From Rhodococcus qingshengii (GTDB taxonomy: Bacteria; Actinomycetota; Actinomycetes; Mycobacteriales; Mycobacteriaceae), in NCBI RefSeq assembly GCF_021025955.1, contig NZ_JAJNCL010000005.1:62001-126000 (forward strand): 64,000 nt of DNA. Direction: 5' to 3'. The notes below the pieces were generated by a model. It saw only the letters and a list, made by a program, of their open reading frames with translations. It had not been told where the DNA came from and ran no database searches. Made by a program: the position numbers and the translations under genes. This document shows, piece after piece, positions 21,523-27,408 of this stretch. Each line of letters opens with the position of its first letter. Position 1 is the stretch's first letter.

Positions 21523-22836
21523 TCACGCCACCTTGGGGCGATGAGTACGCTCGTAGCCTTTACGGTCGTAGAAACGGGTGGTCACGATGCCGAGTACGAC
21601 GCCGATCAGGAGACCCACCAACGTCATCCAGATGGCATGCAGCAGGCCGGCCTCACCGCGCGCACCGAAGAACAGGATCGACCGTGTGCCCATGTAAATC
21701 TGGTGCATCGGCTCGAACTGGGCCAGCCAGGCATACAACCTGGGGCTGGCTTCGAGGGGGATGGTGCCGCCGGACGAGGGCAGCGCGAGAATGACGAAGA
21801 CGAACAGGTTGATCAACATGCCCAACGAGCCGAACGCGGCCATCACCGACATTGCCGTGATGCCGACCGCTGTGATGACCAACGCCCCGTACTCCCACAA
21901 TGCAAGCCCGTGGGTGACCGGCATACCTAGGGCGCGACTGATCCACTGGAACACTGCGGAGACTATGCCGGACAGCACGATCATGAACGCCCATTTCACG
22001 AGCAGCGTCCGAAATCTGTTGATACCCACCACATCGTTCTGAACGAAGAGCGGACCGAATTCCGTGGGCGCATAACCGAGCATGCCGTCCACCAAGGAAT
22101 TGACGACGGTTGCTCCGGTGAACCCGGCAAGGACCAACAGCAGCGCGAAATAGAATGCAACCAAACCGAATCCGGTGCCGTCGGGAAGCGGATCGTGAGC
22201 CACGGTGAGTACGTTCACCGGATTCTCGAGCAGCAGACGGCTCGCGCCGGAGATCTGGGTTCCAGTGCCTCCCGCTTCCAACTCCGCGGTGACAAGTGTG
22301 GTGAGCTGCTCGCCCATGTTCTTGTTGACCGACGCGAGGGCTGTAGTACCGATCGACTGGACCAGAGATGCGGAGACGGAACCTGCTCGAGGATTGGTGT
22401 AGATCGTGATGATCGGTTGTTCTACATCACCGGCGACGACGCTCGTCTCCGCCAGGATGATCGTCCTTTTCGTGAAATCACTGGGAATCACGATCGCCCC
22501 GTACAGCGTGCCGGAGTTCAGCCGTGATTGTGCTTCGGCGATACCGATCTGCTGCAGGTCGATCTTCTGGTGGTCGATTCCGCTTTCGAGGCCGGCGACT
22601 ATGTCGTTTCCGAAATTCTTGCGATCGGTGGGATCACCGCCCGGGAGGGTGTCGCCTTCGTCTTGGTTGACCAACGCGATCGGGAACTGGTCCAGATGTT
22701 TCTTGGGGTCGAGTATCCCACCCATGTACAGCGCTGCCAGCGCGGACATCAAGAGGGTGACCACTATCAATGGTGTCAGCCAGAATCGTGGTGTGTGCAT
22801 GACGGTGCGGGCAGACGGCTCCGTGTTCGTGCTCAT
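21523..22836 (-). CDS. DUF3533 / YhgE-Pip-like membrane protein
   Basis: The start ATG 22836 gives 437 residues; the open frame continues to 24228 but that part is antisense to the DUF4178 operon. TM1 is near residues 20-40. It is followed by a large extracytoplasmic domain (about 45-215, including VNQDEGDTLPGGDP) and five to six C-terminal helices, the layout of ABC-2-permease-related DUF3533/YhgE proteins. No ATPase gene is adjacent. Family members are linked to envelope export or phage infection, but the role here is unknown. Confidence 0.8.
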   Translation of the reverse strand: MSTNTEPSARTVMHTPRFWLTPLIVVTLLMSALAALYMGGILDPKKHLDQFPIALVNQDEGDTLPGGDPTDRKNFGNDIVAGLESGIDHQKIDLQQIGIAEAQSRLNSGTLYGAIVIPSDFTKRTIILAETSVVAGDVEQPIITIYTNPRAGSVSASLVQSIGTTALASVNKNMGEQLTTLVTAELEAGGTGTQISGASRLLLENPVNVLTVAHDPLPDGTGFGLVAFYFALLLVLAGFTGATVVNSLVDGMLGYAPTEFGPLFVQNDVVGINRFRTLLVKWAFMIVLSGIVSAVFQWISRALGMPVTHGLALWEYGALVITAVGITAMSVMAAFGSLGMLINLFVFVILALPSSGGTIPLEASPRLYAWLAQFEPMHQIYMGTRSILFFGARGEAGLLHAIWMTLVGLLIGVVLGIVTTRFYDRKGYERTHRPKVA

Positions 22837-23007
22837 CGTCAGTCGACCGGCTTTCTTTCGCGCGGAGTTCCTCGGGCTGAGCGTAAACGCAAAGGTGCGC
22901 CGGGGCAGTCTTTCGATCTGCCCGCGGCGCTGGAGACCCGTCGGGTCGGCGACAGGCCAGATTGCCGGCAGTCTCATCCGAAAAGGCTGAGAACGGATCG
23001 GTAGGGT

Positions 23008-23640
23008 ATGGCCCGCGGCAACCCTGCCGAGACGATTTCGGAGAAACCGTTGACCAACGTGCTGATAGTTGTCCTGATACTCGTGGTGATCGCTGCCGTC
23101 GCGTTCGTGGTCCTGCGTGGACGCCAGGGCAAGCCGAATGCCCGCGTCGACCCGCTCGCCGACTATCCAGAGGTGTACGACCCTCACAAGATCGGGGTCG
23201 GCGACATCATCACGTACGCGGGTATCGACCACGTTGTTCGAGGGACCATCACGCTCGACGAAGAGGGGTACATCTGGCGTGAGCACCTTCTCGACGGGTC
23301 GACCGGTCGCCGCTGGCTGACGGTCGAGGACGACGAGGGCGAACTGGAGATGACTCTCTGGATGCGTCGAGAAGGAACCAACCTGGTCCCGAACGGCGAT
23401 GTCATTCTCGACGACAAGGTTCACCGCAAGATCGAAAGTGGAACGGCGAAGTTCACTGCCGAGGGTACGACGGGTACGGCCCCTGCCGGTTCGATGGAAT
23501 ACGCGGACTACGCAACCGCCGACAAGACCGGCCTGATCGCATTCGAGAAGTGGGCGCGCGGACAGTCGTGGGAGGTTTCCACGGGACGAGCGGTCACGCG
23601 TAGCGAACTCACCGTCATCCACTCGGGCCCACCGGAATGA
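23008..23640 (+). CDS. DUF4178 domain membrane-anchored protein
   Basis: The product is 210 residues from ATG 23008. TTG 23050 (196 residues) is preceded by GGAG at good spacing and may be the true start. One N-terminal membrane helix (LIVVLILVVIAAVAFVVL) is followed by a soluble DUF4178 domain: VGDIITYAGIDHVVRGTI, then EEGYIWREHLL and WLTVEDDEGE. It is the first gene of a five-gene operon with DUF2617, DUF4247, DUF350 and an aminopropyltransferase homologue. The biochemical role of DUF4178 is unknown. TAGGGT at 23002-23007 may be a -10 element if TTG 23050 is used. Confidence 0.85.
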   Translation: MARGNPAETISEKPLTNVLIVVLILVVIAAVAFVVLRGRQGKPNARVDPLADYPEVYDPHKIGVGDIITYAGIDHVVRGTITLDEEGYIWREHLLDGSTGRRWLTVEDDEGELEMTLWMRREGTNLVPNGDVILDDKVHRKIESGTAKFTAEGTTGTAPAGSMEYADYATADKTGLIAFEKWARGQSWEVSTGRAVTRSELTVIHSGPPE

Positions 23641-24137
23641 GTCTGTATCTACTCGACGTGGAACCGACCGACGTGGATGCCGCTGCACTGGGGTTGGTAC
23701 TGGGAGCTCCCGCGCCGCCGACCCTCGCCGAGTTGGTGATCGAAACTGCCGGTGCGACGTTGACGCTGGGGGTCCTCGGGGCGTCGCACGTGGTGACGGC
23801 CTGGGCGTCGGAAAAGAAGCTGACCGAACAGGTTTCGTGTGATGCTCTTGCGGCCGGCGGTGAACCGTTGCCCGCAGTGGAGTCCACGGAAAACTACCGG
23901 TTCGAGTCTTCCTCAACGGTCCTGGACCGAGTCGAATTCGATTCGGAAGCTGCGTCGTTGAGAGAATCCGCCGGTCAGGACGGCTGGATCTGCGGATCGT
24001 TTCCCGGTGACGCCACGGCATTGACCGCGTTGTGTGGCGTGCGAGACCGACAGGGGTGGAGTTGGCAGAGTTGGCATTTGTACCCGGGGGAGGGGACAGG
24101 AGTGATCGTGAAGACACGCAGCAGGTGGCGACCGTGA
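23637..24137 (+). CDS. DUF2617 family protein
   Basis: This is a 166-residue soluble protein with no signal or membrane segment. It overlaps the DUF4178 stop by ATGA. It contains LGASHVVTAWASEKKLTEQV, which I associate with DUF2617, and an acidic and aromatic C-terminal half ending in a basic tail (KTRSRWRP). Its position within the DUF4178-DUF350-SpeE operon is the main clue; it may be a cytoplasmic adaptor. No catalytic motif is seen. Confidence 0.8.
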   Translation: MSLYLLDVEPTDVDAAALGLVLGAPAPPTLAELVIETAGATLTLGVLGASHVVTAWASEKKLTEQVSCDALAAGGEPLPAVESTENYRFESSSTVLDRVEFDSEAASLRESAGQDGWICGSFPGDATALTALCGVRDRQGWSWQSWHLYPGEGTGVIVKTRSRWRP

Positions 24138-24541
24138 GGGGGCGTACGTGGTTGGCTCCGGTGATGGTGGCGGCCGCAATTATGTTGTCGGCGTGCGGTG
24201 GTGGAGCCAAAGACTTCATCGCGGACAACTATTCCAAGACGTCCCAGGATGGCGACGTCGTTTTGTACTCGTCGAAAGATCCAGTGGGCACGACTGTCTC
24301 ACGGATTGTCGACGCGGACGAACCCGCGGCGCGAAGTGCTGACGGCGGCAACGAATACCTGCGCTACGACGACGACATCGTCACTGTCAGTTCAGCTTCG
24401 GGCGGTGGCAGCACCATCAAGGTAGAGGACATCGACGGCACGTATCGCAGCGGCGGATACGCGTACCTGGGGCCGGGTTTCAACCCGGGGTCCCCAGCGG
24501 GTGGAAGCAGCGGCAGCGGCGGTTCGGGTAGTGCCAAATGA
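24134..24541 (+). CDS. DUF4247 lipoprotein
   Basis: From GTG 24134 (GTGA overlap with DUF2617) the protein is 135 residues. A lipoprotein signal peptide ends in the lipobox LSAC, with GGG after the Cys, so it should be lipidated and face the cell wall side. The mature domain carries DFIADNYSKTSQDGDVVLYS and LRYDDDIVTV, the DUF4247 pattern. The C terminus is a Gly/Ser-rich linker (GGSSGSGGSGSAK). It is the exported component of the DUF4178 operon. Confidence 0.85.
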   Translation: MRGRTWLAPVMVAAAIMLSACGGGAKDFIADNYSKTSQDGDVVLYSSKDPVGTTVSRIVDADEPAARSADGGNEYLRYDDDIVTVSSASGGGSTIKVEDIDGTYRSGGYAYLGPGFNPGSPAGGSSGSGGSGSAK

Positions 24542-25041
24542 CGGTAATGCTCAATGAGAAGGAGAACGGCGTGACGAACATCTTTGCATCCACTTCCGTC
24601 GAGATCGGGACGGTGGATCCGGCATTGCTCGTCGGTGGCGTTCTCGGCACCCTCGCCTATTTCGCCGTCGGCGTAGCGGTCTTGGCCACGGGTTTCCTCG
24701 TCCTCGACCTCATGACACCCGGAAATCTCCGCCATCAGGTGTACGTCGACAAGAACCCGAACGCTGCGATTCTGTTGGCTTCCAACCATCTTGCGCTGGC
24801 GATCATCGTGGTGACGGCAATCCTGACCAGTTCGGACGGTTTTGCTCAGGGGCTCGCGGACTCCGCGGTGTATGGACTGTTCGCGATCGTGTTGCAAGCG
24901 ATCGCGCTGCGTTTGATGAACGCGTTCCTTCCCGGCAAGCTGGTTGCGCTGGTGCAGGATCCGAAGATGTGCGGCGCCGCGTGGGCTGTAGGTGTGAGCT
25001 TGCTGTCCATCGGTTTGGTGAACGCCGCAGCGCTCACCTGA
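24538..25041 (+). CDS. DUF350 (YjfL-like) integral membrane protein
   Basis: The protein is 167 residues from ATG 24538 (ATGA overlap). GTG 24571, preceded by AGAAGGAG, is the better initiation site and would give 156 residues. Four membrane segments are evident: VGGVLGTLAYFAVGVAVLAT, AAILLASNHLALAIIVVTAI, the pair around YGLFAIVLQAIALRLM, and a C-terminal AAWAVGVSLLSIGLV. DUF350 proteins occur in E. coli yjfL-type operons with PspA-like and glutathionylspermidine-synthase-like genes; here the partner is a spermidine-synthase-like protein. Confidence 0.88.
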   Translation: MTVMLNEKENGVTNIFASTSVEIGTVDPALLVGGVLGTLAYFAVGVAVLATGFLVLDLMTPGNLRHQVYVDKNPNAAILLASNHLALAIIVVTAILTSSDGFAQGLADSAVYGLFAIVLQAIALRLMNAFLPGKLVALVQDPKMCGAAWAVGVSLLSIGLVNAAALT

Positions 25042-26615
25042 TGGTTGCCGCTGATCCCGATGTCAAGGTTGCCGAGCGTTCGACGATGCTCGGCTCACGT
25101 GCACGAGTGCTTCTCCTTGCGGCTGTTGCCGCGTGCGCGGCGTGCGGCCTGATCTACGAGTTGGCGCTGTTGACGCTCAGCGTGAGTCTGACCGGCGGCG
25201 GCATAACCCAGACGTCGTTGATCGTCGCGGGATTTGTTGCGGCTCTGGGTATCGGAGCGCTGGCCGCAAAACCTCTGCTGGGGCACGCTGCCGTTTCGTT
25301 TGTGACGGTCGAGATACTGCTGGGCCTGATCGGCGGATTCAGTGCCGTTACGCTGTACGTGACCTTCACGTTCTTCGGTTCCAGCGCAGCAGTTCTGGTG
25401 GCCGCAACGGCGCTGATCGGCATCCTCGTCGGTGCTGAAGTGCCTCTGTTGATGACGCTCTTGCAATCTGGTCGGAGCGACAATGATGCTCAGAGCACCG
25501 GAAAAGTGCTGGCAAACCTCAATGCCGCCGACTACCTCGGCGCGTTGATCGGCGGCCTGCTGTGGCCGTTCGTACTGCTGCCGTGGGTGGGCATGATTCG
25601 CGGCGCCGCACTCACCGGCATGATCAATCTCGTGGCCGCGGCAGTTGTCGCACTGATACTTCTCCGGTGGCAGCTCAGCCTGCGCGCACGATTGATCGCC
25701 GTCGTCGCAATGCTGTTGGCGGCAAGCTTGATCGGATGGCTTCTGATCGCTGCCTCGGACATCGAGACCACGGCGAGGCAGAGGCTGTACACCGATCCGG
25801 TGGTGGCCTCCGAGCGGTCGGTGTACCAGGAAATCGTCGTCACCGAGCGCGGCAACGACGTGCGCTTGTTCCTCGACGGAGACCTGCAGTTCTCCAGTGT
25901 CGACGAGCATCGCTATACCGAGTCGCTGGTGTATCCGGCACTGGTGAACGATCCACGGCGGGTGCTGATTCTGGGCGGCGGTGACGGCCTCGCTGCACGG
26001 GAAGTGCTGCGGATGAACAGCGTCGAGCAGATCGTGCAGGTCGAACTCGATCCGGCCGTCATCGAGTTGGCCAACACCCGTCTTCGCGATCTGAACGCGG
26101 GAGCGCTCGAGGATCCACGGGTGGACGTCGTTCTCGACGACGCGTTCCGATGGTTACGAGAAAGCCCGGAACCGGGTTTCGACGCGGTCATCGTCGACCT
26201 ACCGGATCCTGACACGCCTGCACTGGGCAGGTTGTATTCCGTGGAGTTCTACGGACTTGCCGCTGCCGCGATGAATCCGGGCGGTTTGATGGTCGTCCAG
26301 TCCGGCAGTCCGTACTCGACACCGGACGCGTACTGGAGGACGGTGTCGACGGTATCGGCTGTCGGACTGAGTGTCTCGCCCTACCACGTCTTCGTGCCGA
26401 GCTTCGGTGACTGGGGATATGTGCTCGCGCAAGCAGGATCCACTCCACCCGATCTTCGTCTGCCCCCTGATGTGCCGGAACTACGGTTCCTCGACGAGCC
26501 GACGCTGGCGTCGGCAACGGTGTTTCCGCGCGATCGCCCGAGGCGGGAGTTGGAGCCCTCGACCCTCGACCGGCCACGCATCGTCGACGATATGCGCAAG
26601 GGCTACGAACGCTGA
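25041..26615 (+). CDS. Membrane-anchored polyamine aminopropyltransferase homologue
   Basis: Start ATG 25041 shares one base with the DUF350 stop, giving 524 residues. The N-terminal half (about 20-240) has around seven membrane helices. The C-terminal half is a spermidine-synthase-type Rossmann domain: VLILGGGDGLAAREVL near 307-322, the acidic residue of VQVELDPAVIELA, VVLDDAFRWLRE, and VDLPDPDTPALGRLYS. The soluble enzyme moves aminopropyl from decarboxylated SAM to putrescine. Here no speD/speA gene is nearby, and the membrane fusion suggests action at the envelope or on an unusual substrate. Confidence 0.88.
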   Translation: MVAADPDVKVAERSTMLGSRARVLLLAAVAACAACGLIYELALLTLSVSLTGGGITQTSLIVAGFVAALGIGALAAKPLLGHAAVSFVTVEILLGLIGGFSAVTLYVTFTFFGSSAAVLVAATALIGILVGAEVPLLMTLLQSGRSDNDAQSTGKVLANLNAADYLGALIGGLLWPFVLLPWVGMIRGAALTGMINLVAAAVVALILLRWQLSLRARLIAVVAMLLAASLIGWLLIAASDIETTARQRLYTDPVVASERSVYQEIVVTERGNDVRLFLDGDLQFSSVDEHRYTESLVYPALVNDPRRVLILGGGDGLAAREVLRMNSVEQIVQVELDPAVIELANTRLRDLNAGALEDPRVDVVLDDAFRWLRESPEPGFDAVIVDLPDPDTPALGRLYSVEFYGLAAAAMNPGGLMVVQSGSPYSTPDAYWRTVSTVSAVGLSVSPYHVFVPSFGDWGYVLAQAGSTPPDLRLPPDVPELRFLDEPTLASATVFPRDRPRRELEPSTLDRPRIVDDMRKGYER

Positions 26616-26667: not shown

Positions 26668-27408
26668 ATGACTGTTCGGATCGAGGAGTACGCACCGGGA
26701 GTCCGGTTGCTCACGATGGATCGCCAGGAGAGGCGCAACGCGCTCGACGCGAAGACCTACCGCGAACTCACGAACGCGATCCGGGATTCGGACGGCGACG
26801 ATGCAGTGCGGGTTTCGGTGCTGACGGGTGCCGGTGGTGTCTTTACCAGTGGTAACGACATCGGAAGTTTTCAGGACACTGCCGGCAAGGACGGCGGTGA
26901 GGCCAAGGATCTGTTGATCGCACTTGTCACCGCACGCAAACCGATTGTCGCAGCGGTCGAAGGATTTGCAGTCGGGATCGGCACCACGATGTTGTTGCAC
27001 TGCGACCTGGCGTTTGCCGGACGAGGTACACGATTCCGCTTGCCGTTCGTTCCGCTCGGGCTCTCGCCCGAGGGTGGATCGAGCTATTTGTTGCCACAGA
27101 TCGCGGGCCTCAAACGCGCGACCGAACTGTTGATGCTCGGAGATATGTTCGACGCCGACGAGGCTGCCGATGCCGGTCTGGTCAATCGCGTAGTGGAGGC
27201 CGGCACCGCGCTCGACGTGGCGCTGGAGCGTGCAGTACGCATTGCAGACTCCCCGGCTGAATCGGTAGCGCTCACGAAGATGCTGCTCCGTCGACCGCAT
27301 CTCGACGCCCTGCTGGAAACCATCGACGTGGAGTCGGATCATTTCGCGAGACGGCGACGATCTGATGAAGCGCAAGAAGCATTCGCAGCTTTCATGAAGA
27401 AGAGGTGA
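26668..27408 (+). CDS. Crotonase family, enoyl-CoA isomerase-like
   Basis: The 246-residue protein has a crotonase fold with oxyanion-hole regions TSGNDIGSF and GFAVGIGTT. Both hydratase Glu positions are replaced: Thr in GIGTTML (Glu144 of rat hydratase) and Phe in LPFVPLGL (Glu164). Instead [12 protein letters not shown] places a Glu like the catalytic one in yeast delta3,delta2-enoyl-CoA isomerase (LITEGGTT). It is therefore more likely an isomerase than a hydratase. It overlaps the next gene (IlvX-like) by GTGA. Confidence 0.85.

Follow-up and report, generated by a model that had tools for sequence, protein, structure and literature searches.

DUF2617 as a candidate S-adenosylmethionine decarboxylase in a membrane aminopropyltransferase operon of Rhodococcus qingshengii

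Positions 23008-26615 of a 64,000-nucleotide stretch of Rhodococcus qingshengii DNA, hereafter the window, hold five plus-strand open reading frames (ORFs) whose products belong, in order, to the families DUF4178, DUF2617, DUF4247, DUF350 and Spermine_synth (Table 1). Pfam and NCBIfam agree here with an earlier note on the sequence, which had named these families and described a coupled operon including an aminopropyltransferase-like membrane enzyme. This enzyme, mSpeE, is a PRK03612 polyamine aminopropyltransferase by NCBIfam (NF002956, E 1.2e-195) and keeps the motifs GGGDG, RY[HT]E and DxPDP, which we take to be those of the donor and amine sites. Aminopropyl transfer from decarboxylated S-adenosylmethionine (dcAdoMet) to an amine is predicted from these motifs, and mSpeE should therefore need dcAdoMet. 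No match to PF02675, the S-adenosylmethionine (AdoMet) decarboxylase (AdoMetDC) family of SpeD, is present in the window's genome. The PF01276 decarboxylase is also absent from it, the genome-wide search not having extended to other putrescine routes or to the eukaryotic AdoMetDC family. The remark in the earlier note that no polyamine precursor gene lies nearby is most likely false, as DUF2617 itself appears to be an AdoMetDC, the enzyme of the dcAdoMet-making step. On the computed operon structure, domains, conserved residues, alternation with speD and profile and fold links, we think it probable that the operon is a self-contained membrane module which makes dcAdoMet and transfers its aminopropyl group, with DUF2617 feeding mSpeE.

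Three of the gene junctions overlap by 1-4 nt, with ATGA at 23637, GTGA at 24134 (the start of the lipoprotein gene) and TGATG at 25041. The earlier note had every junction overlapping. An ATGA overlap is available between DUF4247 and DUF350 at 24538, but GTG at 24571, with a GAGAAGGAG ribosome site, is the more likely start of DUF350 because the few relatives compared align better there, so that this junction is probably a 29-nt gap. Hydropathy profiles agree with the topologies previously claimed: DUF4178 has one N-terminal helix, its domain beyond the anchor being probably cytoplasmic, DUF4247 has a signal segment, DUF350 has several helices, and mSpeE has about seven or eight transmembrane segments within residues 17-236.

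Table 1. Genes of the operon and codons of conserved DUF2617 residues, in window coordinates; residue counts refer to 82 actinobacterial and 71 archaeal DUF2617 sequences
Feature	Position	Strand	Remarks
DUF4178 protein	23008..23640	+	PF13785, E 3.7e-30; N-terminal membrane anchor, hydrophobic segment at residues 18-36
DUF2617 protein, candidate pyruvoyl-type AdoMetDC, two fused halves	23637..24137	+	PF10936, E 3.7e-49
DUF4247 lipoprotein	24134..24541	+	PF14042, E 1e-30; GTG start, LSAC lipobox
DUF350 membrane protein	24571..25041	+	PF03994, E 9.3e-24; probable start GTG 24571, alternative ATG 24538
mSpeE	25041..26615	+	Spermine_synth PF01564, E 1.2e-36; C-terminal aminopropyltransferase domain
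Ser50-His51 codons, proposed self-cleavage site and pyruvoyl serine	23784..23789	+	invariant, 82/82; archaeal 71/71
Cys68 codon, aligned with SpeD catalytic Cys (N-half alignment)	23838..23840	+	Cys 78/82, Tyr 4/82; archaeal Cys66 71/71
Thr130 codon, C-terminal half	24024..24026	+	invariant, 82/82; C-half alignment to SpeD
His147 codon (WH.YP motif), aligned with catalytic His of SpeD HTYPE/HTWPE	24075..24077	+	82/82; archaeal H139 71/71

The distribution of DUF2617 is consistent with a role as donor source. Across 200 sampled genomes of the order, full-length mSpeE (E 1e-130 or better, reached by 58 of the 89 matching genomes) and PF02675 (38 genomes) coincide in nine, with no association between them (Fisher p 0.55). 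DUF2617 is present in 50 of the 200, and 49 of these have mSpeE. The 58 mSpeE genomes divide into 48 with DUF2617 only, eight with PF02675 only, one with both and one with neither (Fisher p 4e-8); the independent events are few, because the eight PF02675-only genomes sit in three families of the sample. A PF02675 match is missing from 49 of the 58, and a fiftieth, the sole genome with both (G016), has only a relative without the pyruvoyl serine. A relative with SGAHFYAW where SpeD has ESHxSxHT is seen in this genome (locus L095) and in one from a different family of the order (L102, G001). In the sole genome with neither (G096), whose completeness is 82%, the locus stops at a contig end. Genome G199 has DUF2617 and no full-length mSpeE; here (L099, 3841-4386) the gene stands alone, with no other operon gene within about 3 kb, which could reflect a second role or gene decay. 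Gene positions place most SpeD genes of the order beside soluble SpeE and not the mSpeE operon.

In a phylum sample of 198 genomes (mSpeE at E 1e-80 or better, 14 of 48 matching; five of the 14 are also in the order sample), all 13 DUF2617 genomes over the cut-off fall among the 14 mSpeE genomes, and the fourteenth (G021) has SpeD. An additional DUF2617 match, in G383, lies under the cut-off. Two of the 13 (G431 and G266, whose mSpeE match has an internal stop) also carry a PF02675 paralogue in which Tyr replaces the Cys. Paralogues of this kind, having S-[AQ]-S-H together with Tyr where the catalytic Cys would be, occur at L166 and L167 of these genomes and at L106 of G111, and may be neofunctionalised decarboxylases.

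Where mSpeE occurs with SpeD only, SpeD has the ordinary ESH...H[TS][YW]PE...CG pattern in the seven genomes examined of the eight (G180 was left out), and the mSpeE motifs are nearly identical between DUF2617 genomes and SpeD genomes. Use of AdoMet itself by mSpeE as a 3-amino-3-carboxypropyl donor, for want of SpeD, was considered first; it was dropped in view of this similarity and of the alternation between DUF2617 and SpeD. The same two observations argue against DUF2617 being an AdoMetDC relative with a switched substrate (arginine, ornithine or another amino acid), which would supply the acceptor amine and not the donor. Such a switch would also leave the 48 genomes without PF02675 still missing a donor source, and Pro150 of DUF2617, three residues past the aligned catalytic His, is invariant (82/82). 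Substrate switches of this sort have been described for both bacteria and archaea, according to the available text of PMC10407285, and in four DUF2617 sequences Tyr stands in place of the Cys. Both facts count against AdoMet decarboxylation by DUF2617, although on balance we regard a switched substrate as unlikely.

A similar pattern is found in archaea. Among 14 control genomes, DUF2617 matches only in Corynebacterium glutamicum and Haloferax volcanii, neither of which has PF02675. A Haloferax larsenii plasmid carries TM-SpeE followed by DUF2617. Of 45 haloarchaeal loci obtained by scanning genome contigs, 44 have DUF2617 directly downstream of TM-SpeE; in the remaining one (L113, G202) a single contig has one gene at each end, the arrangement expected if a circular replicon had been cut between the two. 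PF02675 is missing from 43 of the 44 haloarchaeal genomes searched, Halosimplex salinum (G224) having in addition one of ordinary pattern. In a class sample of 116 haloarchaeal genomes (TM-SpeE at E 1e-90 or better, 14 of 67 matching), the 14 TM-SpeE genomes are exactly the 14 DUF2617 genomes, and the single PF02675 genome lies outside them. By annotation, a Halobaculum rubrum plasmid cluster (L108, 5158-6936; S-adenosylmethionine decarboxylase, YkgJ family protein, speE) is an exception to the rule that halophiles lack AdoMetDC. As far as the available part of Prunetti et al. 2016 (PMC5178350) goes, TM-SpeE homologues without an AdoMetDC were noted in Haloferax volcanii and other sequenced halophiles, and the source of dcAdoMet was questioned. 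Many sampled actinobacteria share this gap, having mSpeE without PF02675. If DUF2617 is an AdoMetDC it answers that question, and explains how many actinobacteria and haloarchaea without the known enzyme feed a membrane transferase. The consensus of DUF2617-linked SpeE, GGGDw, is of the type reported for HVO_B0357, deletion of which is said to give no phenotype (PMC5178350, available part). The hypochlorite hypertolerance of an HVO_0255 transposon mutant was not used, this paralogue being described with GG(GA)G(F/Y).

Ser50 aligns, in presence and position, with human Ser68 and the serine of SpeD ESH, and the archaeal equivalents of Ser50, His51, Thr130, His147 and Pro150 are kept in 71/71; in Thermotoga maritima AdoMetDC the essential residues are given as S63, H68 and C83 (PMC10407285, available text). 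In haloarchaeal DUF2617 the consensus is IGESHYV...CSC for the N-half and RFGPDAWTT...YETYHTYPE for the C-half; for SpeD it is F.PQGVT..L.ESHAS.HTYPE...DVFTCG. It could be supposed that DUF2617 is a catalytically dead AdoMetDC fold that regulates mSpeE or supports it structurally, in which case mSpeE would use AdoMet itself or another donor. The Trypanosoma brucei prozyme is inactive. That T. brucei has an AdoMetDC paralogue of this name (PDB titles), and that no spermidine was seen in Haloferax volcanii (PMC5178350, available part), both weigh against catalysis by DUF2617. Against a dead enzyme, the Ser, His and Thr are invariant across 153 sequences and the Cys nearly so, and 48 of 49 order-sample genomes have no second AdoMetDC to regulate, the match in the forty-ninth lacking the serine. 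Such a role for DUF2617 appears improbable.

Profile comparisons with hhalign link the family to SpeD most clearly through its archaeal members. The haloarchaeal C-half aligns with the stretch of SpeD that closes with HTYPE (P 2.3e-5 to 5.5e-6; 0/400 column shuffles). The N-half, compared on its own, aligns with ESH...C (P 0.005; 2/400 shuffles; score 19.4 against 17.8 for an unrelated DUF350 profile). Control families gave P 0.024 (DUF350), 0.075, 0.27 and 0.47 against SpeD. With actinobacterial DUF2617 the C-half match is weak (2/400 shuffles) and the N-half is within noise (69/400). Actinobacterial and archaeal members are one family, PF10936 matching 71/71 archaeal sequences and hhalign giving a probability of 95. 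A SpeD hidden Markov model built here picked out, via the C-half, four Halorientalis DUF2617 ORFs among 4857 ORFs (E 1.8e-4 to 7.7e-3), and had no match in the reversed ORF set. The Pfam AdoMet_dc model, PF02675, matches 10/71 archaeal members weakly (best E 0.0059), and 0/82 actinobacterial members pass its curated cut-off; DUF2617 is therefore filed as a distant relative and not as a PF02675 member. Since the eukaryotic AdoMetDC Pfam family has no match at E 1 among the 82 or the 71, DUF2617 resembles class 2 AdoMetDC in layout only. Its N-half and C-half have no detectable similarity to one another, so that the two-half reading depends on the comparisons with SpeD and with class 2 enzymes.

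The fold of AdoMetDC is likewise a sandwich rich in beta strands. Searches of PDB sequences with DUF2617 gave no match at E 10 (profile) or E 1 (single protein). A predicted model of the Haloferax protein has a class 2 AdoMetDC as its top structural match, with Ser50 in register with human Ser68. Foldseek alone found no significant match for either DUF2617 model, and this counts against an AdoMetDC assignment, as does the interpretation of Ravi et al. 2024 (mSystems, PMC11237479), in which DUF2617 is a beta-sandwich enzyme of another kind, with conserved His, Asp and Glu, replacing a CesT/Tir-PspA dyad in a membrane-stress operon. The available part of that account does not mention the invariant Ser50. 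The two interpretations overlap, given the fold of AdoMetDC, and for the archaeal members both fold and profile matches favour AdoMetDC. A sandwich enzyme of another kind is very improbable.

As an AdoMetDC, DUF2617 would fold as two fused halves, the N-half bringing Cys68 and a self-cleaving Ser50 that becomes the pyruvoyl cofactor, the C-half bringing Thr130 and His147. It would cleave itself before Ser50 and then decarboxylate AdoMet to dcAdoMet. N-terminal helices would anchor mSpeE to the membrane, and its catalytic domain would use this dcAdoMet to move an aminopropyl group onto an acceptor amine within or close to the membrane, with DUF4178, DUF350 and the DUF4247 lipoprotein as assisting membrane partners, and the module may in this way serve the cell envelope. 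The assignment would give this Pfam family a function and would turn the question of what membrane SpeE does into one that is directly assayable. No assignment of DUF2617 to AdoMetDC was found in the literature on DUF2617 and on AdoMetDC and polyamine genes, as far as it was available in text, most subscription papers and all bioRxiv preprints being outside coverage.

The operon recurs in actinobacteria, as the earlier note had proposed. At 48 mSpeE loci, retrieved from the 57 mSpeE genomes other than the window's (two of the loci, L053 and L059, are cut off by the end of a contig), the upstream cluster includes DUF350 in 47, DUF4247 in 47, DUF4178 in 46 and DUF2617 in 40, in some cases with other genes interspersed. 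At L048 (G088) no recognisable DUF350 gene is apparent, and there is little room between DUF4247 and mSpeE. Three operons without DUF2617 (L062, L063 and L068) have about 1.1 kb of extra sequence between DUF4247 and DUF350, which in L062 holds an anchored Ser/Asp/Glu-rich ORF. The closest named relative of the window's DUF2617, P0001, is from Rhodococcus qingshengii (94% identity). A Mycobacterium asiaticum DUF2617 protein was listed among mycobacterial proteins in elephant serum proteomics (PMC9505326, available part), and Rv2599, the M. tuberculosis DUF4247 protein, is reported to bind matrix proteins (PMC3726780, available part). Around the window's operon, a large membrane protein ORF lies divergently just upstream (21523-22900, minus strand), and the next ORF downstream, presumably enoyl-CoA-hydratase-like, starts at 26668. 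No tRNA was found in the window, and no Rfam family reached threshold there.

The kinship with the E. coli yjf operon suggested earlier holds, in that the operon is related to yjfL/PspA-type operons. The operon itself is not new, and its description as an undescribed system cannot stand. Two proteins of the comparison that follows, CCP45395.1 and CCP45394.1, are presumably from M. tuberculosis. In its available part, Ravi et al. (PMC11237479) describes a spermine-synthase-like domain fused to seven transmembrane helices, whose partners are a lipoprotein, DUF350, DUF4178 and the CesT/Tir-PspA dyad. Also described there are related operons that include polyamine genes, and a variant whose dyad gives way to DUF4247 and DUF2617 (CCP45395.1 and CCP45394.1, respectively). 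These systems are proposed to monitor polyamines or to aminopropylate other substrates, altering the membrane. The window's operon, which has DUF4247 and DUF2617 with DUF350, is a further member with a gene set the same in kind (CesT/Tir was not searched for), and the sole PspA match in the genome (G000:C5:96496-97212, E 4.2e-44) is on another contig than the operon (C44). As far as the published text was available, nothing in the variant is assigned to AdoMetDC or linked to the missing SpeD.

Ten bacterial mSpeE loci on plasmids, proteobacterial and other, were taken from 43 records, comprising nine of the 12 covering 80% of the query and the truncated H13 (H3, H10 and H12 were omitted as of the same genus or species as loci included); two archaeal records were also viewed. 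Eight of the ten have speD in the stretch, six on the same strand and two (Burkholderia) about 3 kb off on the other strand; none is seen in the stretches of Tritonibacter and of the truncated Rhodovulum gene. DUF2617 was found at 0/10, and a plasmid search with the window's DUF2617 protein had no match at E 1, a search insensitive to archaeal members, since the Haloferax plasmid does carry DUF2617. The Alteromonas (mSpeE-speD) and Novosphingobium (DUF350-mSpeE-amine oxidase-speD) operons share mSpeE, DUF350 and DUF4178 with the window's operon, and differ in having speD, with an amine oxidase in Novosphingobium, while DUF2617 and DUF4247 were not found there. The Pseudomonas aeruginosa genes PA4773-PA4774 (SpeD2-SpeE2), tied to surface spermidine and antibiotic resistance, likewise place a dcAdoMet maker beside an aminopropyltransferase (PMC11107197, available part), in a different operon and with a SpeE2 of 349 residues.

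Among decarboxylases, class 2 (eukaryotic) AdoMetDC has two fused halves with a single pyruvoyl serine in the N-half (PMC10407285, available text), a layout like that of DUF2617, although its chains are 311-319 residues long and those of DUF2617, at 166-179, about half that. Class 1b SpeD (T. maritima type) matches DUF2617 by profile in its ESH cleavage motif with Cys and in F.P..T...HTYPE, but carries all motifs in one short chain. It is tempting, if tentative, to regard DUF2617 as a third architectural class, compact, fused from two halves, class 2-like in layout and shared by actinobacteria and haloarchaea, feeding a membrane aminopropyltransferase that would modify a lipid head group or lipoprotein and not make free spermidine. 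A product other than free spermidine may be favoured by the Haloferax volcanii report and by M. smegmatis, in which the operon's presence is unchecked, reportedly lacking detectable polyamines (cited in PMC8503589, available part); reported spermine synthesis in Mycobacterium (cited in PMC11841054, available part) weighs the other way. In DUF2617 the motifs that SpeD holds in a single short chain are divided between two halves.

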